A stretch of DNA of 58,418 bases. Origin: Candidatus Fermentithermobacillaceae bacterium. Its GTDB lineage: Bacteria; Bacillota; Sulfobacillia; Fermentithermobacillales; Fermentithermobacillaceae. This document shows, one piece after another, positions 14,907 through 29,044 of this stretch. The position numbers were made by a program, and so were the translations under genes. The DNA lies in assembly GCA_012512325.1 (NCBI GenBank), contig JAAZEL010000046.1, positions 1-58,418 on the forward strand. The letters are read 5' to 3'. Each line of letters begins with the position of its first letter. The stretch's first letter is position 1. Under the pieces are notes generated by a model. That model saw only the letters and a list, made by a program, of their open reading frames with translations. It had not been told where the DNA came from and did not search any database.

Positions 14907-17657
14907 TTACCTGGTGATCCCGGGTGTAAACACATCTACCTGCCTCTGGGTAACATATGTATTCTTTACCCGGACTACCCTATCCTCCAATTCGTATTCT
15001 ATGGTCAACCTTACGCCCCACAATACCGTAAACTCTCCTGAGCGTTCCCAGAGCACCCGGAAGCTCTCGCCCGGATCAAAGTCAACCGCGGTAACCCGCG
15101 CTCCTTCAGGCAGTCTCCATGCGGCTTTCCCTGAGAACAGCGCATACTTTCCCGTAACCCACTTCAAGGGCCCTGTGAGTTCCAGGTATACCTCCGGCGG
15201 GGTAACGCTTGAGCAGGAGAACTCCCTGGTTTCCGGCGCCTCGTCGGTGGCTACATGCCACGATTTCTCAAGCAGCACATTGTCATGATTATCGTACGAA
15301 ACCGCCCTCACCAGGTACCGGCCTGAAGGGCCGAAGGTGTGGGCGACTTCCAGGTGAGGCTGCCCCTGGATCACCACTGTCTCCCCGTCCCCGAAATCCA
15401 CTTCCCAATACGAATGATATGTCTCCTGGGGCTTCCACAAGGTAGTATGTTTGGACCTGTACACCACCCTTACCGTTGGAATATCCTCCTCTTCACCTGG
15501 TACATCCTGTACCGGGCCCTGGATTCCTTTATCCTCTTTGTCCAGCGCGCCTTGGTCCCATGTTCCCTGGCCCCACTGGAACTCAGCCGACTCTCTTCCG
15601 TCCCAATCGCCTTGAAGGGGCGGACCTTCATCGCCCATGAAACCGTCCACACTGACCCTGACCTTGCTGATCAGCTCGCGTTCGAACACGGACTCCACCT
15701 TTCCCCCGGGGGTATACGGGTTGACCGTGCCCGTCCTGACAAGCTTCAGGCCCACCCTGTAGCACTCGTGCTTCAGCAAGACCTCTGCCTTCGCTCCTCC
15801 GGCCAACATCCGGTGCCAACCCGAAACCGGCAGCCACCGCTCTCCGTCGTAGCCCTCAACCCAGAGGGCACACCCCCACCCTTCAGGCAATGAAGGCACG
15901 CTAACTGAAACGTTGAACACCCGGTCGCCGGCGGTATCCCAAACCGGTGCCACATACGAAGGCTGCCAGCTTGATACTGCGATTTCCTCCATGTCCTGCA
16001 CTGCGTTGAACCGGGCTGTCTTATCCGGCTCAAGCAGCAAGGCAACTATGGTTTGCTGTACCTGCTTGTCCTTTAAGAGGTTCAGATAGGACGGGGACAG
16101 AAATCCGGAAAACACCCTGATTACATCCCTGGGCCCTTGGGGCGGGACGGCAGAGTCCACTTCGCAGAATAGGTCATTCGGGCCTACCTGGGGCCACACC
16201 AGCCCCAAAAGGTTGGTAACCTTGCCTGTTACGGTAACAAAACGGGTCTTCCTGGTATATGCTGACGAAGAAGCCATCCGGTTAAGCTGCTCTAGGTAGT
16301 AGTTGGCAGGCACCCTGTAGAACCTCTGGCCGGCAGAGGTGCCCAGGTTGACCAACGCTTCTTCCTTCACCAGCCTTCTCAAGAAGGGGCTCTCGGGGCC
16401 GTCCAGGTATCCGATGGAACTGACTATGCGATCTGCAATTATTCTCTGTACTTCCGCTTTCACGGTTATCAACGCCTTCTTGGCGTAGTGCAGGAGCGCC
16501 TTGAGCCCGTAGTGTATGATGGCATCTTTGAGGCTGCCGGGCCCAGGGCCCTGGGAAGGTGCGAGTAGGCTCTGCCCCAGGCTCCCCGACGAAGCCATCC
16601 GCACCACGTACTGGTTTCTGCCAACGGCCATTGCCAGGAGTTCATAATATGCAACGGTGAAATCTTGTCCGGCCTGGGGCGGGCCGTCTGAGGTTTCGGC
16701 CGACGGCCCGAGTGGCGGCCTAGTGCCCCCGGCAATGCAGTTTTCCCATATCAGGGGGCGGTTTTGCTTGATCCACCCTGCGAAAGTCTGCGTGGGTGAA
16801 TCCGCAGGCACGTATGGGAGGGACAGGAACCTTTCTTGCACATATTGGCTGTACAGGGGCTCATAGATTTCCCTAGCTCTCTTTGCCACCCACCAAGCTT
16901 CGCTTTCCCACTGGAAGTTCCCGGTACCCAGGGAACTCGGCAAGTCCCCTGTGCTCCTTGGAGATATGGCTGCAGGATCCAACACAGAGCTCACATCACC
17001 TAAGGGCGAAAATCGGGAATACCGTGTTTCCTGTTCAAACATGCACTCATGTTTCACAACCGTGCATGCTTGAAACAGCAGATCCGCCAGGAACGAACCT
17101 CTCTGGGGTGTGCTGAGCATGATGGCGTTGTCTACCAATCCGTCGCGGATGATTCCCGTTTCCAGCCCGAACCTGAGAACCAGCCCCGAAACTCCGTAAG
17201 CGGCGACGTCCAATATGCCGCATCCCGTATCCTCCACGGTTTGTTCCAATACCTTGCGCAACGAATGAGCCCCTGAATCCAGGTCCCCGTAGGGCTCCCC
17301 AGGGGTGTGCACGAACAAGGTTGTCCCAAGGCGATACCCTGACTCTTCCAGGCGGGACACCAGGCCTGCCCGGGTCCATACGCTCGGGCCGTCATTGTCC
17401 GATGGCTCACCGATGAGCACCAACGGCTTGGACGGGATAGTCCTTTGGGCTGAGTGTTCGCCCGAGGGCGCTGCCGGCCGGGGCGAAGCCGCCAAGGGTG
17501 ATGCAAGGTTAAGCAATATGCACAGCGATGACACAACCGCAACCATCCTGACTCCTGTCAGTCGGGTTAAGGCAGATCTGGTTTTGCCCCCGGAACTCCC
17601 GGGTAACCGGGCAAATAACCGGCCGGTTAGACAGGCAAGAAGGGCTTTAGTCATCAC
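14907..17657 (-). CDS. Exported lipase-fold (probably inactive) protein with PKD-like domain
   Basis: A 916-residue protein with an N-terminal hydrophobic export segment (VAVVSSLCILLNLASPLAA). An alpha/beta-hydrolase domain lies at about residues 77-200. Its elbow region DVAAYGVSGLVLRF aligns without gaps to the lipase pattern DIVAHSMGGLVARY, and IMLSTPQRGSFLAD matches lipase GTPHRGS. In that alignment the nucleophile Ser is Gly155, with a Ser two places on, so ordinary catalysis looks lost. Near residue 765, VDFGDGETVVIQ...VAHTFGPSGRYLVRAV is PKD-like. Two starts are possible: GTG 17657, overlapping the upstream gene, or ATG 17546 with AGGAG five bases upstream. A cell-surface role is inferred; the function is unknown. 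Confidence 0.72.
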   Translation of the reverse strand: MMTKALLACLTGRLFARLPGSSGGKTRSALTRLTGVRMVAVVSSLCILLNLASPLAASPRPAAPSGEHSAQRTIPSKPLVLIGEPSDNDGPSVWTRAGLVSRLEESGYRLGTTLFVHTPGEPYGDLDSGAHSLRKVLEQTVEDTGCGILDVAAYGVSGLVLRFGLETGIIRDGLVDNAIMLSTPQRGSFLADLLFQACTVVKHECMFEQETRYSRFSPLGDVSSVLDPAAISPRSTGDLPSSLGTGNFQWESEAWWVAKRAREIYEPLYSQYVQERFLSLPYVPADSPTQTFAGWIKQNRPLIWENCIAGGTRPPLGPSAETSDGPPQAGQDFTVAYYELLAMAVGRNQYVVRMASSGSLGQSLLAPSQGPGPGSLKDAIIHYGLKALLHYAKKALITVKAEVQRIIADRIVSSIGYLDGPESPFLRRLVKEEALVNLGTSAGQRFYRVPANYYLEQLNRMASSSAYTRKTRFVTVTGKVTNLLGLVWPQVGPNDLFCEVDSAVPPQGPRDVIRVFSGFLSPSYLNLLKDKQVQQTIVALLLEPDKTARFNAVQDMEEIAVSSWQPSYVAPVWDTAGDRVFNVSVSVPSLPEGWGCALWVEGYDGERWLPVSGWHRMLAGGAKAEVLLKHECYRVGLKLVRTGTVNPYTPGGKVESVFERELISKVRVSVDGFMGDEGPPLQGDWDGRESAEFQWGQGTWDQGALDKEDKGIQGPVQDVPGEEEDIPTVRVVYRSKHTTLWKPQETYHSYWEVDFGDGETVVIQGQPHLEVAHTFGPSGRYLVRAVSYDNHDNVLLEKSWHVATDEAPETREFSCSSVTPPEVYLELTGPLKWVTGKYALFSGKAAWRLPEGARVTAVDFDPGESFRVLWERSGEFTVLWGVRLTIEYELEDRVVRVKNTYVTQRQVDVFTPGITR

Positions 17658-18454: not shown

Positions 18455-18485
18455 ATTATATCACATGTATGCCGTTTTATGGCAA
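18455..18485 (-). promoter_or_regulatory. Possible sigma-A promoter for the 18327-14907 pair
   Basis: On the minus strand TTGCCA (18480-18485) and a perfect TATAAT (18455-18460) are separated by 19 bases, two longer than ideal. The expected start point is only a few bases before the nested hairpin at 18441. Confidence 0.4.
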
Positions 18486-20030
18486 TAGCTCGGCGGCTTT
18501 TTCGATAAGCTTCACCGTCTTGGGATAGGTCTTAAGCCCCTGGAGGTCTTCGGGGGTAACCCACATCACCCTGGCAGTCTCCCCCGGTTGAGGCGCGGGC
18601 TCCCCTCCTGTGTACCTCATGGCGAAGTAGTGAACGGTTTTCTCAACAGGAACACATCCTTCGCCGGGAAACCTGTATGTGTGCGAGCCTGCATAAGCTA
18701 AGATCTCACAATCAACTCCCGTTTCCTCTTTGACTTCCCTTAGGGCGGCCTCCTCAAGAGCCTCTCCTTGGTCCACATGGCCTTTGGGCAAGGTCAGATA
18801 ACCAAACCTGTCTTCGATAAGCAGCACCTGGATACCTCCGTTGCCTTTCCGGAACACCACCCCTCCCGCGGACAACTCCTGTCTCACCCCACGGCCGCTG
18901 AGGAGTACAGCCCTGGACAGCTTGGCGATCTGCCTTGCGACAAACGGCAGGCTTATCTCTGTCTTCGCCATAGCGTCTTCTACGCTACCGGGACCGGTCG
19001 TGCTGTCAAATACAGCGGTGATCTCCCAAGGGTACCCTCGGAGCACACCGTCGCCCAGGCCGCCGCCAAGGGCTATCACAGGGATGCCCCGCTCAAACCC
19101 GGCCCTGGCTACGGCGTATGGCACCTTGCCTTTTTCAGTCTGGGAATCTATCCTGCCCTCGCCTGTTATGATGAGGCCCGCTCCTTCTAATTCGTCCATG
19201 AAACCCGTCTCCCGAAGGACAAAACCTGCACCGTCCACGAGCTTGGCCCCGAAAAACGCCCACAGGGCCGCCGCCAAGCCCCCGCCTGCCCCTGCCCGGG
19301 GCACATCTCTGGGATCCCGTCCCAGGTCCCGTCCAAGCACCGAACCATACCGGTCCATGTAGCGGTCAACTTCATCAAGCCGGTGCAGCTCAAGCCCCTT
19401 TTGCGGCCCGTATACCATGGTTGCCCCTTGGGGGCCTGTCAAGGGATTATCCACGTCGCAGATTGCAATTACCTCGACATCTTGGAACTTCTCAGGGATG
19501 TCACCTGGATCCACACGGAAAACCCGCTTCAACCCGTAAATGCCATGGGGCACCTGGCGGCCTGCTTCATCCAGCACCTTGCCTCCGGCAGCTTGCACCA
19601 TACCTATGCCGCCGTCGTTCATAGCAGTCCCGCCTACCCCGACAAGGATTCGACGGGCGCCTTGTGCTGCGGCCACCGCCATGAGTTCACCCACCCCGTA
19701 GCTTGTGGCTGCCATGGCATCGCGTTCTTCAGGCGCAACCAGGGCAAGCCCTGAGCTGGCGGCGCTTTCTATCACCACAGTACCGTCGGGAAGCAGCCCC
19801 ATCCCGCAATCCACAGTCTTACCGTAAGGCCCCGTCACCTGTACGTTCCGTACCGTTCCGGACTTGACGGATACCAATACCCCTACTGTACCGTCACCGC
19901 CGTCCGCCAGAGGTATTTCAACCACCCGCGCCTCGGGAAACCCTTGTCTGAACCCCTGGGCAACCAGGGCGCATGCCCTGGGAGCCGGCAAGCTCCCTTT
20001 GAAGGCATTCGTAGCAACCAGCACTTTCAC
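18477..20030 (-). CDS. Glycerate 2-kinase fused to a Nudix hydrolase
   Basis: A 517-residue single ORF with two domains. Residues 1 to ~380 are a GlxK/GarK-type glycerate kinase: KVLVATNAFKGSL, then PLADGGDGTVGVL, GGTAMNDGGIGM, GAGGGLAAALWAFFGA and ITGEGRIDSQTEKGKVP. Residues ~382-517 are a Nudix hydrolase with a complete box (GHVDQGEALEEAALREVKEETGV, Gx5Ex7REUxEExGU) in the context RFGYLTLPKGHV, which resembles diadenosine-polyphosphate hydrolases. The kinase phosphorylates D-glycerate at C2; the Nudix substrate is unknown. The start is GTG. No stop or frame shift separates the domains, so the fusion is real unless it is an assembly error. An M19 family gene lies 23 bases upstream. Confidence 0.93.
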   Translation of the reverse strand: MKVLVATNAFKGSLPAPRACALVAQGFRQGFPEARVVEIPLADGGDGTVGVLVSVKSGTVRNVQVTGPYGKTVDCGMGLLPDGTVVIESAASSGLALVAPEERDAMAATSYGVGELMAVAAAQGARRILVGVGGTAMNDGGIGMVQAAGGKVLDEAGRQVPHGIYGLKRVFRVDPGDIPEKFQDVEVIAICDVDNPLTGPQGATMVYGPQKGLELHRLDEVDRYMDRYGSVLGRDLGRDPRDVPRAGAGGGLAAALWAFFGAKLVDGAGFVLRETGFMDELEGAGLIITGEGRIDSQTEKGKVPYAVARAGFERGIPVIALGGGLGDGVLRGYPWEITAVFDSTTGPGSVEDAMAKTEISLPFVARQIAKLSRAVLLSGRGVRQELSAGGVVFRKGNGGIQVLLIEDRFGYLTLPKGHVDQGEALEEAALREVKEETGVDCEILAYAGSHTYRFPGEGCVPVEKTVHYFAMRYTGGEPAPQPGETARVMWVTPEDLQGLKTYPKTVKLIEKAAELLP

Positions 20031-21242: not shown

Positions 21243-21270
21243 ACATAAGACCCGCGCCCTTCATATTATG
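21243..21270 (+). promoter_or_regulatory. Sigma-K-like promoter upstream of the unknown cassette
   Basis: AC (21243-21244), 17 bases, then CATATTATG (21262-21270) fits the Bacillus sigma-K pattern AC-N16/17-CATAnnnTA except the last base. It lies ~50 bases before the first cassette gene. Such short motifs occur by chance, so the support is mainly the position and the neighbouring pdaB. The rest of the 227-base gap shows nothing clear. Confidence 0.4.
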
Positions 21271-21318
21271 TGATGATCAAGCGCCGACTTGACTATTTCG
21301 CCGTAAGGAGGGCTGACT

Positions 21319-21600
21319 GTGGCCAACAGTCTTACAAAGGAAACCTTGGATCTTGTCTCGGCCCTGAGGCCGTTTACCGGTAGGAGAGGCCGGGGCGTGA
21401 TAGATACCCTCATCAGTCTCACTGGCAGTTCCGTGTCCTTATCCGATGGAATCGAATTGACAACCCTGGCAGAGCAGGCCGGAAATCTGCTGGCTAGCCG
21501 GGTTGACTCGGCGGTTTCCCTGTTCATCATCCTGGTTGTGGTGTGGCTGGTGCAGGTATTCACCCTCTCGAGTATCAACCCTGAAATATCCCAGGCTTAA
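21319..21600 (+). CDS. Uncharacterised small membrane protein (cassette gene 1)
   Basis: I do not recognise this family. The 93-residue product starts at GTG with AAGGAGG seven bases upstream. A basic amphipathic N-terminal half (SALRPFTGRRGRGVIDTLISLTGS) is followed by a helical segment and one C-terminal membrane helix (VSLFIILVVVWLVQVFTL). The tail ends NPEISQA. It is the first gene of a plus-strand cluster of five, 12 bases before the next, behind a sigma-K-like promoter. A role in the spore envelope is an inference from neighbours only. Confidence 0.75.
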   Translation: MANSLTKETLDLVSALRPFTGRRGRGVIDTLISLTGSSVSLSDGIELTTLAEQAGNLLASRVDSAVSLFIILVVVWLVQVFTLSSINPEISQA

Positions 21601-21612
21601 GGAGGAATTCAG

Positions 21613-21828
21613 ATGAAGATTTTCGGAGTTGACGTCAACCCGTATGAACTGTTCTTGATCCTGATCCTGCTCTTGGCGGCAACAGGTGCGTTTGACGCCC
21701 ATGCGGCCCGTGCAGGCAAAAAAGACTCTTCGCAAAAACGCGAGAGCCCTGTAAGATTCCTGAAGGCCCCCAGAAGGCGCGCTGCCGGGAAGACATGGGG
21801 TTCTGACAGACAGGATAAGCAGAGCTAA
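21613..21828 (+). CDS. Uncharacterised small membrane protein (cassette gene 2)
   Basis: A 71-residue protein with AAGGAGG seven bases before ATG. The N-terminal half holds one membrane helix (NPYELFLILILLLAATGAF). The C-terminal half is strongly basic (RESPVRFLKAPRRRAAGKTWGSDRQDK), likely cytoplasmic and able to bind nucleic acid or anionic surfaces. The hydrophobic stretch FLILILLLA recalls the YjcZ-like peptide at 29074 but the proteins are otherwise unlike. No known family was recognised. Confidence 0.72.
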   Translation: MKIFGVDVNPYELFLILILLLAATGAFDAHAARAGKKDSSQKRESPVRFLKAPRRRAAGKTWGSDRQDKQS

Positions 21829-21928
21829 CAGCTTGGTTCAAGGATTTCATCCGGCGGCAAAAGGTCGGCACCATCCCCGGTAAGATACGCATAAGATGCT
21901 GAAACAGAGGTAACTGGAGGGAACTTGT

Positions 21929-22279
21929 GTGCACAACCTGGCTAGTTTACTCATGCAGATGGAGAAAATCGAATCGGAGATAAACACAAGACTGTCGAGT
22001 TTGCAAGACCGTACCGTGCAGGGAACTGCAGGCGACAGCCTGATCAGGGTGACAGGAGACATATGGTTCAACATTCAAAATATCACCATCGACCGGGACA
22101 AATTGGCCGCACAACCTTTCGACCTGGCGACCCTGGAACAGCTCGTGGCTGAAGCAGTAAATGACGCCATCAGCAAAGCGCGCAACCTGCTGAAGACCGA
22201 AATTGGAGGAGTGTTCGGTGGAAAAGTGCCTCCGGAGTTTGCAGGCTTCTTTGGGCGGAGCGGTGCCAACGGTGAATAA
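21929..22279 (+). CDS. Divergent YbaB/EbfC-like protein (cassette gene 3)
   Basis: A 116-residue protein starting at GTG with GGAGG eight bases upstream. An N-terminal helix (LASLLMQMEKIESEINTRL) precedes a short beta section (DSLIRVTGDIWFNIQNITID). The helix DLATLEQLVAEAVNDAISKARNLL follows, then KVPPEFAGFF. This layout, with LEQLVAEAVNDA and the closing PPEF/GF, matches YbaB/EbfC nucleoid-associated proteins, in which the pattern is LEDLVxAAxNDA...LPPGF. It lacks the Met-rich N-terminus and the usual recR/dnaX neighbours, so it appears to be a paralogue adapted to this cluster. DNA binding is plausible but unproven. The next gene starts inside its 3' end. Confidence 0.72.
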   Translation: MHNLASLLMQMEKIESEINTRLSSLQDRTVQGTAGDSLIRVTGDIWFNIQNITIDRDKLAAQPFDLATLEQLVAEAVNDAISKARNLLKTEIGGVFGGKVPPEFAGFFGRSGANGE

Positions 22280-23300
22280 GGGCGGCCTCTGCGAGCTTGC
22301 CCAGGCTTTCTTGACAGGTGAAGGTTCAGGCCATCCCAATGCGGTGCGGGAAAAAGCAGGCCTGCTTGCACTGTTGAATCTCATGGGTATCTTGGAAGTG
22401 TTCTATGCAGCCGGCCAACCTGCTGAACATCGGGTATCCGGGGCAACCCGGGAAAGCCAGATACCCACCGAAAGCGCCGGGCAGAAGACACACCCGGAAA
22501 CACCTGCCGGCAGCCGGGAATTGTCTGAACCACCCCAAGGGGTTGAAACCGCAGTTCCTCTCCCGGACGACAAAGAAGGCTTCAGGCTTCCCTTACAACC
22601 GCAGGCTTCACCCGATACCGATACCCGCCCTGAACCAGCAAAGCCGGACGCTCTGGCCCCTCTGATGGCGGCCATCCCTTCCCTTCTTGCCGGCAAGGAA
22701 GGGGGAATTGAGCCTGCGCTGGTATCAGCCATGTTGAAATTGATTGCATCCCTTTCAAGAACCAAGCCCGCCTCCACCGTCAAAGGCGGTTCACCCGAGG
22801 GTGAACCTGCTCAAGCCCCTGTTGATTCAGGCGAGCCTTGTGCCGGTGAGACGTCCAAGGACGATGCAACAATGCCTTCCCACCATGCCGGCTTGGGACT
22901 TGACCCCAAGCTCATAGCCTCTCTCATCAATTTCTTGGCGGGAGTCGACAGGACCAAGACAGAGTCAAACGCCAGCCCAAGCAATCAGCCCTTAGCGGAG
23001 GCCCCCGTCAAGGGCGAAGAAAAGTATGAACTAAGCTTGTCGAGAGACGGCCGGTCAGTGTTGGCTAAACGCATACCCCAAGCCATACCGCCCAAGGCGT
23101 CCCAACAACCCCCGTCCTTTTCCCAGTTCCTGAAGCAGCCGCCCCGACCCGCGAAAGCTCCCCCGGAGCGGCCGCCGGACAGCCACAAGCCGGGTGTGGG
23201 GATACGCAGGGGGTGGAGCAAACAGCGACGCTACTCCGACAACCAAGGGCCGGATGAAACCCGGTATGGCAACAAGCCTACTTTTGCCTGCCACAGGTAA
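22218..23300 (+). CDS. Uncharacterised Pro-rich protein with helical repeats (cassette gene 4)
   Basis: A ~360-residue protein of no recognised family. The track starts at TTG 22203; GTG 22218 has GGAGGA seven bases upstream. It overlaps gene 3 by 62 bases in another frame. An N-terminal helical part (GGLCELAQAFLTGEG...GLLALLNLMGILEVFYAA) is followed by long Pro/Glu/Thr-rich stretches. Two short amphipathic repeats break these up: LVSAMLKLIASLSRTK and PKLIASLINFLAGVDRTK, both ending RTK. The C-terminus is Pro/Arg-rich (PPSFSQFLKQPPRPAK). Coding is supported by its length, ribosome site and tight packing, not by homology. A scaffold or envelope role is a guess from composition. Confidence 0.7.
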   Translation: MEKCLRSLQASLGGAVPTVNKGGLCELAQAFLTGEGSGHPNAVREKAGLLALLNLMGILEVFYAAGQPAEHRVSGATRESQIPTESAGQKTHPETPAGSRELSEPPQGVETAVPLPDDKEGFRLPLQPQASPDTDTRPEPAKPDALAPLMAAIPSLLAGKEGGIEPALVSAMLKLIASLSRTKPASTVKGGSPEGEPAQAPVDSGEPCAGETSKDDATMPSHHAGLGLDPKLIASLINFLAGVDRTKTESNASPSNQPLAEAPVKGEEKYELSLSRDGRSVLAKRIPQAIPPKASQQPPSFSQFLKQPPRPAKAPPERPPDSHKPGVGIRRGWSKQRRYSDNQGPDETRYGNKPTFACHR

Positions 23301-23396: not shown

Positions 23397-24188
23397 ATGC
23401 GTATCAACAGAAGGGTGGCCTTTGCTGCGCTTGCCCTGATTCTTGTGGCAGGGGGCGTTTTCTATGGCCTGCGCCCGCCTGGGATAAGGCCCGTTTTCGA
23501 AGAGTACGACCCACGCCTTGCCATGGGCACTGAAATGCCCGTGTTCTACGTGCACACTGACAGGAAGGCACTGGCGCTTACCTTTGATATTTCTTGGGGT
23601 GACAAGACCCCCGAGAAAGTGCTGGATGTGCTGGCTAAGCATAACCAGAAGGCTACATTCTTCCTGTCAGGGCCGTGGGCCAACCACTACCAGTCCATAG
23701 TCTCCCGTATCGTCCAAGACGGCCATGAGATTGCAAGCCACGGACAGGAACACGTTAACCTCAGTCAGGAGAGCAAAGACGATATCAGGAAGAATATACA
23801 GTCAGCCCATGACATACTGGTCAAGCTCACAGGTACCACGCCCAGGTATTTCAGGCCCCCGAACGGGGACTACGATGATCTGGTGGTGCTCACGGCAAGG
23901 GAACTTGGGTATGAGACCGTAATCTGGGCTGTGGACAGCCTGGATTGGAAGAACCCCGGCGCTTCGTACATTGTGGAAAGGGTGTCAAAGCTCAGTTTCC
24001 CCGGGGCAATACTGTTGTTCCATGCGTCCGATTCGGCAAAGCAGACCCACGAAGCCCTGTCTATGGTGTTGGAGAACCTCAAGTCTGCCGGCTACGAAAT
24101 CATGACTCTGGGCGAGCTCATGTCCTTGGGCAAACCGGCCAGGGATGACCCCAGGGGCAGGCCCCTGAGCGAACTGCCGGGCAATTGA
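23397..24188 (+). CDS. pdaB: Polysaccharide deacetylase, PdaB-like sporulation type
   Basis: A 263-residue NodB-fold protein with an N-terminal membrane anchor (VAFAALALILVAGGVFYGL). Motif 1 is LTFDISWGDKTP, the TFDISWG variant typical of PdaB instead of TFDDG. Motif 2 is SHGQEH (HxxxH-like, GHEIASHGQEH), motif 3 is RPPNGDYDD, and DSLDWKNPG and LLFHAS follow. PdaB is needed for spore cortex maturation in Bacillus subtilis. GGGAGGAG precedes ATG 23397. Its position after the unknown cassette suggests a shared sporulation context. A general peptidoglycan or chitooligosaccharide deacetylase is the alternative. Confidence 0.88.
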   Translation: MRINRRVAFAALALILVAGGVFYGLRPPGIRPVFEEYDPRLAMGTEMPVFYVHTDRKALALTFDISWGDKTPEKVLDVLAKHNQKATFFLSGPWANHYQSIVSRIVQDGHEIASHGQEHVNLSQESKDDIRKNIQSAHDILVKLTGTTPRYFRPPNGDYDDLVVLTARELGYETVIWAVDSLDWKNPGASYIVERVSKLSFPGAILLFHASDSAKQTHEALSMVLENLKSAGYEIMTLGELMSLGKPARDDPRGRPLSELPGN

Positions 24189-28108: not shown

Positions 28109-28363
28109 AACATGCACTATATAGTTTCAGAATCAAGAAATCAACCTATATTTTCGACGATAAGGATCAAGACCCGTCAAGTTACATCACCGGACACGGC
28201 CCAAACGCCAACAACCGGTCCAACGAGGACGGGAACCGAACCCGGCGGCCGCTAAGAGAGACACACCTGAGGGGACAATATTGGCTCAGCCAATTGGGTA
28301 TTGCACGCCTGCTTGCATAGGTCCCGCGCTTTCTCGGCATCCTTAACACGAGGTGATATTGAC

Positions 28364-28936
28364 ATGACCCATCAGTTAACTCAAAAGGAACGGTCGCTTT
28401 TGCAGGATCAACTGGCCCATGAAGAAATCTGCATTAAGAAGTACAGGGGATATGCAAACCTCACCCAGTCCCGGGAGCTGCGCAACCTGTTCAACGAACT
28501 TGCTCAGGAAGAGCAAAACCACTACGACACCATCAACAGGTACCTGGGCGGCCAGGGCGGCGGTCAGCAAGGGCAGCAGCAACTGAACTGGCAACAACAG
28601 GGCCGGCAACAAATGCAACAAGAGCCGCTACAGACCAGAGGTTCAGGGTTTGAGCCCGGCCAGTTCGACAGGCAGACCCATTCATGGGCTGAGGAATCCC
28701 ACCAACAGACTCAACAAGGACAGGGGCAACAGGCAGGCGCCCCTGACGACGCAGCCATGTGTCAAGACATGCTCATGACGGAGAAGTTCATTTCCGGCGC
28801 TTACGACACATCGGTATTTGAATCAGCCAACCCCCAGTTAAGGAAAGACCTGCAGAAGATCCAGGATGACGAGCAAAAACACGGTGAGAAGATCTTCAAC
28901 TACATGCAGAAACACGGTTACTACAACCCGCAATAG
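28364..28936 (+). CDS. CotF-type spore coat protein with duplicated ferritin-like halves
   Basis: A 190-residue protein. ATG 28364 has AGGTGAT upstream; the track start at 28301 lacks support. The first half (LLQDQLAHEEICIKKYRGYANLT...LFNELAQEEQNHYDTINRYL) and the second half (MCQDMLMTEKFISGAYDTSVFESANPQLRKDLQKIQDDEQKHGEKIFNYMQKHGYY) are both ferritin-like helical pairs; the second matches the Coat_F domain well. Between them lies a ~75-residue Gln/Gly-rich linker (GGQQGQQQLNWQQQ). CotF proteins sit in the inner spore coat, and the Gln-rich linker could be a transglutaminase target (inference). It is monocistronic and ends at the hairpin 28958-28996. Confidence 0.9.
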   Translation: MTHQLTQKERSLLQDQLAHEEICIKKYRGYANLTQSRELRNLFNELAQEEQNHYDTINRYLGGQGGGQQGQQQLNWQQQGRQQMQQEPLQTRGSGFEPGQFDRQTHSWAEESHQQTQQGQGQQAGAPDDAAMCQDMLMTEKFISGAYDTSVFESANPQLRKDLQKIQDDEQKHGEKIFNYMQKHGYYNPQ

Positions 28937-29035: not shown

Positions 29036-29044
29036 CATAATATG
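29036..29044 (+). promoter_or_regulatory. Sporulation-type -10 element (CATAATATG)
   Basis: CATAATATG matches the CATAnnnT core of sigma-E/sigma-K promoters and lies 30 bases before the 30-residue YjcZ-like ORF. No matching -35 was found at the right distance, so this is weak. The cassette promoter at 21262 has the sister sequence CATATTATG. Confidence 0.3.

Follow-up and report, generated by a model that had tools for sequence, protein, structure and literature searches.

The question raised by this locus is what a protein of the YbaB family, which is usually regarded as a nucleoid protein with an unsettled job, is doing among unnamed small genes beside a sporulation-type deacetylase gene, and in which cell and structure its neighbors would act. 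The window analyzed here is a stretch of 58,418 nucleotides from a Candidatus Fermentithermobacillaceae bacterium, a group predicted to sporulate (PMC10215811). Four plus-strand genes, all listed in the initial annotation, were confirmed as open reading frames with strong Shine-Dalgarno sites ahead of every one of them: g1 (21319-21600, 93 aa, GTG start); g2 (21613-21828, 71 aa, ATG start); g3, here named YbaB2 (21929-22279, 116 aa, GTG start); and g4 (22218-23300, 360 aa, GTG start), which overlaps g3 by the 62 bases first reported (22218-22279). A pdaB-like polysaccharide deacetylase gene, the syntenic partner of the cassette in the order, follows on the same strand at 23397-24188, so the claim that pdaB comes next stood as to position, but the product scored just short of the curated cut-off of the PdaB equivalog TIGR02764 (232.3 against 237.4 bits), a cut-off passed by the pdaB products of two relatives. 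Elsewhere in the window, the product of 28301-28936 resembles, on reading, a spore coat protein of the CotF/ferritin-like kind; 18477-20030 looks, by reading, like a fusion of a glycerate kinase with a Nudix domain and adjoins an M19 dipeptidase gene, a pairing kept in relatives; and 14907-17657 encodes a 916-aa protein with a weak PKD match, a similar protein being present downstream of pdaB in two members of family f2.

The initial annotation had made its reading depend on conservation of the cluster, and this was tested: the arrangement g1-(g2)-YbaB2-g4-pdaB is kept in the same order in 13 relatives from two families, and each of the 13 cassette-bearing order members has pdaB immediately after it. 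Within the same family, YbaB2 and g1 are missing from a single genus, represented by three genomes (G007, G010 and G012), which are also without SpoIVA and YpeB and give only weak, partial PdaB-type matches, and all other family and order members tested have SpoIVA, YpeB and PdaB, two of them with partial SpoIVA matches. Because the absence of YbaB2 and g1 coincides with that of SpoIVA, YpeB and a strong PdaB, the cassette is, judged by gene content, lost together with sporulation in this one genus.

The YbaB/EbfC-like nature ascribed to gene 3 was upheld by domain and by structure. YbaB2 scored 52.3 bits against PF02575, the YbaB_DNA_bd domain (curated Pfam cut-off 25.5), and 47.4 bits against the NCBIfam equivalog TIGR00103, below its cut-off of 49.45, a shortfall that would be a sign of divergence only, because some cluster relatives of YbaB2 do pass TIGR00103, for example with 57.5 bits. 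The predicted structure has the alpha-beta3-alpha YbaB fold (pLDDT 83.7), and its top PDB matches, 1ybx, 1j8b and 1pug, reach TM values by target of 0.72-0.86. A second, canonical ybaB, whose flanking genes read as recR and dnaX, was found on another contig of the same genome. In a tree of 88 YbaB proteins, built on few columns and with long branches, 16 sequences with recR/dnaX motifs nearby and one unassigned sequence form a single branch (support 97/95), and all of the YbaBs near g4 (66/66) fall outside this canonical dnaX/recR branch. YbaB2 shows neither the dnaX-ybaB-recR context nor membership of the canonical clade, in agreement with the early remark that this YbaB relative sits away from its usual setting, and on the predicted model it truly has the YbaB fold, as a paralogue that has diverged.

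Profile searches placed g1, g2 and g4 in no family of Pfam, NCBIfam or PHROGs. The g1 protein consists of an ALRPFxGxxGQxxIDTL domain and a C-terminal transmembrane helix (residues 65-83), was aligned across 13 order members and has distant homologues in the class and phylum; its N-terminal half, described at first as basic, is in fact neutral (5 K/R and 5 D/E in the first 50 residues), and with a whole-protein pI of 4.8 a basic g1 was ruled out. The g2 protein combines an N-terminal NPYELFLILILL membrane motif with a tail that is basic as originally described (13 K/R, 4 D/E). The pattern N[PA][FY]x[LVM]FL[IV]..L[LIV] was found once per locus in 10/13 order, 6/6 class and 30/80 phylum loci (46/99 altogether), located either in a separate small g2-like gene or in the C-terminal helix of g1, with 0 matches in a control made of the reversed proteins of the phylum loci; the NPFxLFLILILL membrane motif is thereby a further marker of the cluster. 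A membrane helix that is so nearly invariant suggests specific recognition, beyond mere anchoring. Tandem g1-type genes were also observed in one family, beside sleB-ypeB (L142:5227-6242, also L162 and L163).

The g4 protein carries a REKAGxLALLNLxGI motif, helical repeats of the form [IL]DPxLIxxLLxLL, Pro-rich linkers and an HKPGxGIxR tail. The alignment supports the description of repeats ending in RTK for close relatives, but not beyond them, where [IL]DPxLIxxLLxLL is the conserved part. Structure prediction was poor (pLDDT 51), and g4 is predicted to be mostly unfolded, with short hydrophobic helices. A direct search with A6, the g4 profile made at class level, missed the g4 of the window; homology was shown by a broader profile and by profile-to-profile comparison of the g4 of this order with the phylum g4 family (hhalign probability 95.3, E 2.2e-8). 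Since order members were among the loci on which the broader profile had been iterated, the more independent support for g4 homology would be hhalign between separate alignments, together with synteny. A scan of viral contigs with g4 gave one match, locus L033, which is phage-like, contains none of the cluster profiles and was set aside as a chance match.

Beyond the order, a g1 profile built from order members only retrieved relatives from six further genomes in the class. YbaB is followed immediately by a short g4-like protein in five of these six class loci, which also have a subtilisin-like protease gene, and one class locus lies directly upstream of sleB-ypeB. The S8 protease found near g1 and YbaB2 in these other families of the class (L050:4658-5866, L051:4824-6035, L086, L087 and L089) has a T7SS mycosin as its best NCBIfam match and also matches Csp germination proteases. 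With wider profiles, g1 was detected in 77/399 and g4-like proteins in 88/399 phylum genomes, about a fifth. SpoIVA is present in 85/88 g4-positive genomes (Fisher p 4.8e-5) and 74/77 g1-positive genomes (Fisher p 3.4e-4), compared with 335/399 overall, kin genomes being included in both tests, and of the four exceptional genomes, two have a completeness of 61-75% and the other two gave E values of about 0.006-0.008; the homologues are thus almost all in spore formers, as the annotation required.

Neighborhoods were read in 80 phylum loci chosen by g4 regardless of other neighbors, the first 20 mostly with g1 nearby. Both sleB and ypeB lie within 5 kb of g4 in 40 of the 80, mostly divergent; SipL-SPOCS/LysM genes are neighbors in 21/80 and a gerA-gerB-gerC operon in 2/80; at least one of these spore neighbors (sleB-ypeB, SipL, GerA) is present in 56/80 and none in 24/80. 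The context of the cluster is not peculiar to pdaB, and across the phylum it is mostly found beside sleB-ypeB or SipL/SPOCS genes. YbaB lies within 2 kb of g4 in 46/80 loci, 42 of them on the same strand within 300 bases, and since nearly half of the g4 loci are without it, YbaB2 is not obligatory for g4 loci. The YbaB2-g4 pair is kept in locus L199, presumed to be from Syntrophothermus lipocalidus, a species listed as being without sleB (PMC3533761). A protease-like family (NVVGVGKG... SNNHVLA) with weak NAL1 and Trypsin_2 matches stands beside the cluster in 35/80 phylum loci, such as L206:2237-3238.

The timing and cell of expression may be read from the promoter. A sigma-K-type site lies ahead of g1 on the plus strand (21243-21270), with the -35 AC at 21243-21244, a 17-nt spacer and the -10 element CATATTATG at 21262-21270, and it agrees with the sigma-K consensus AC-N16/17-CATANNNTA, the last base being G and not A. 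A site of the form AC-N16/17-CATANNNT stands ahead of g1 across the order, with the -10 invariant in 14/14 members; the core TCATATTATG is unchanged in all 14 in a region that has otherwise diverged, the following base is T in 13/14, and no base change was seen from -1 to +8 of the -10 element nor in a TGA at +12 to +14, with variable flanks. The AC lies 16 or 17 bases upstream of the -10 in family f1, and f2 members have GC instead of AC at -35; in C. difficile and B. subtilis, a -35 of AC marks sigma-K and ATA marks sigma-E (PMC3789822). The CATATTATG sequence was found 3 times in the window against 0.14 expected. The two other occurrences are on the minus strand, at 16643-16651 and 29036-29044. 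In the phylum loci, where promoter motifs were counted by script and the statistics take in related genomes, sigma-K-type sites precede 29/94 cluster heads and 46/523 other genes (p 7e-8), typically 60-80 bases ahead of g1, and they precede sleB in only 1/42 genes, while sigma-G-type sites precede sleB in 6/44 against 0.36 by shuffling. From these counts, the cluster would probably be made in the mother cell, in contrast to sleB. The sigma-K-like AC-N17 promoter proposed upstream of g1 therefore holds, by its invariant core as well as by the enrichment of such sites phylum-wide, and with the conservation of the cassette and its near-restriction to spore formers it supports the proposal of a late-sporulation module. 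None of the three refuting conditions set by the initial annotation, occurrence in non-spore formers, want of a structural match to YbaB and lack of conservation, went against it when examined.

The reading that we favor, with somewhat better than even confidence, is that the cassette represents, in the Fermentithermobacillales, an ancient mother-cell sigma-K operon assembling a spore-envelope structure, with YbaB2 as the partner of g4. The cassette would be transcribed by sigma-K RNA polymerase in the mother cell at a late stage; g1 and g2, with one membrane helix each, would probably sit in the outer forespore membrane with their soluble parts toward the mother cell; and g4, Pro-rich and largely unfolded, has short hydrophobic helices that would be suited to self-assembly. 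As a chaperone or scaffold, and not for DNA packing, YbaB2 may bind and stabilize g4 and perhaps also g1, its coupling to g4 being reflected in the gene overlap here and in adjacency elsewhere, YbaB2 being usually encoded directly upstream of g4. The products may then build or load a structure at the boundary of cortex and coat, where PdaB (here) and SleB/YpeB (elsewhere) work. A wider form of this proposal is put forward more tentatively, at rather less than even confidence: that these loci represent an unrecognized, phylum-old sigma-K envelope assembly system. In it, a pair of small, membrane-anchored proteins marked by a near-invariant NPFxLFLILILL helix would act together with a helical-repeat protein that self-assembles and with a partner of YbaB fold whose work has moved from the chromosome to proteins.

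The strongest competitor, which we regard as possible but distinctly less probable, is that the cluster serves germination, its proteins positioning, storing or activating SleB/YpeB and PdaB, so that mutant spores would form normally and fail in cortex hydrolysis. The presence of sleB-ypeB at half of the phylum loci makes this rival serious. Class members likewise adjoin SleB/YpeB, two loci stand beside a gerA-gerB-gerC operon, and a sigma-K-made cortex enzyme has a precedent in sleC of C. difficile (PMC3789822). However, sleB has sigma-G-type and not sigma-K-type sites and would probably be made in a different cell from the cluster, the other half of the loci are elsewhere, many of them beside SipL/SPOCS coat-type genes, and ypeB and the cassette are on separate contigs in this order. 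A second alternative, close to the first suggestion that the module tethers DNA to a spore membrane, takes YbaB2 as a sporulation DNA-binding nucleoid protein that g1 and g2 would tether, along with the chromosome, to a membrane. It draws on the true YbaB fold and domain of YbaB2, on the DNA binding of family members (PMC9610160, PMC8581549, PMC2720974) and on the basic g2 tail, yet we consider it unlikely, since a promoter of sigma-K type points to production in the mother cell and not in the spore core, where the spore chromosome lies, which weakens the tether, and since YbaB2 falls outside the canonical clade and the cluster is repeatedly near envelope genes and not DNA genes. That this is an ordinary housekeeping operon lying near spore genes by chance, as the wide occurrence of YbaB and the metabolic neighbors of some phylum loci might suggest, appears highly improbable given its loss together with sporulation inside one family, its near confinement to SpoIVA genomes, its repeated and separate spore neighborhoods and its conserved sigma-K-type promoter.

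A diverged YbaB paralogue tied to spore-envelope genes throughout a phylum is a genetically clean case for asking whether this fold serves DNA or proteins. The unnamed families g1, g2 and g4, because they recur beside sleB-ypeB, are good candidates for missing coat, cortex or germination parts in non-model spore formers. A literature search, with most subscription papers outside its reach, found no paper linking YbaB to spores or YbaB with SleB and sporulation, and a YbaB review consulted does not mention spores.

Compared with known systems, YbaB2 has the fold, domain and size of the YbaB/EbfC nucleoid-associated proteins (PF02575, TIGR00103), but differs from them in having an order-specific DIWFN at the place of the canonical NG turn, in its position outside the dnaX/recR clade, in its spore-gene context and sigma-K-type promoter, and in a score slightly below the TIGR00103 cut-off. 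The cortex lysis genes sleB-ypeB (TIGR02869, TIGR02889) adjoin the cluster at many loci, but their proteins are different and sleB is without the sigma-K-type promoter of the cluster; in Moorella thermoacetica, ypeB and sleB are moth_0201 and moth_0202. Coat morphogenetic genes of the SipL/SafA type (PF12673, SPOCS and LysM) are likewise envelope-type neighbors, to which g1, g2, g4 and YbaB2 show no homology, whereas PdaB (YbaN), the sporulation polysaccharide deacetylase directly downstream in the cassette-bearing order members, is an enzyme and was not seen as a member of the cluster at the loci examined beyond the order. A functional parallel is EspL of the mycobacterial ESX-1 locus, a YbaB-type protein encoded inside a functional cluster that stabilizes EspE, EspF and EspH rather than acting in general gene control, its loss depleting these proteins and changing only one transcript (PMC6319747). 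EspL belongs to type VII secretion and not to sporulation, and its likeness to YbaB2 is drawn from its description and not from sequence or structure; by this analogy, YbaB2 may work much as EspL does, stabilizing the proteins of its own cluster.
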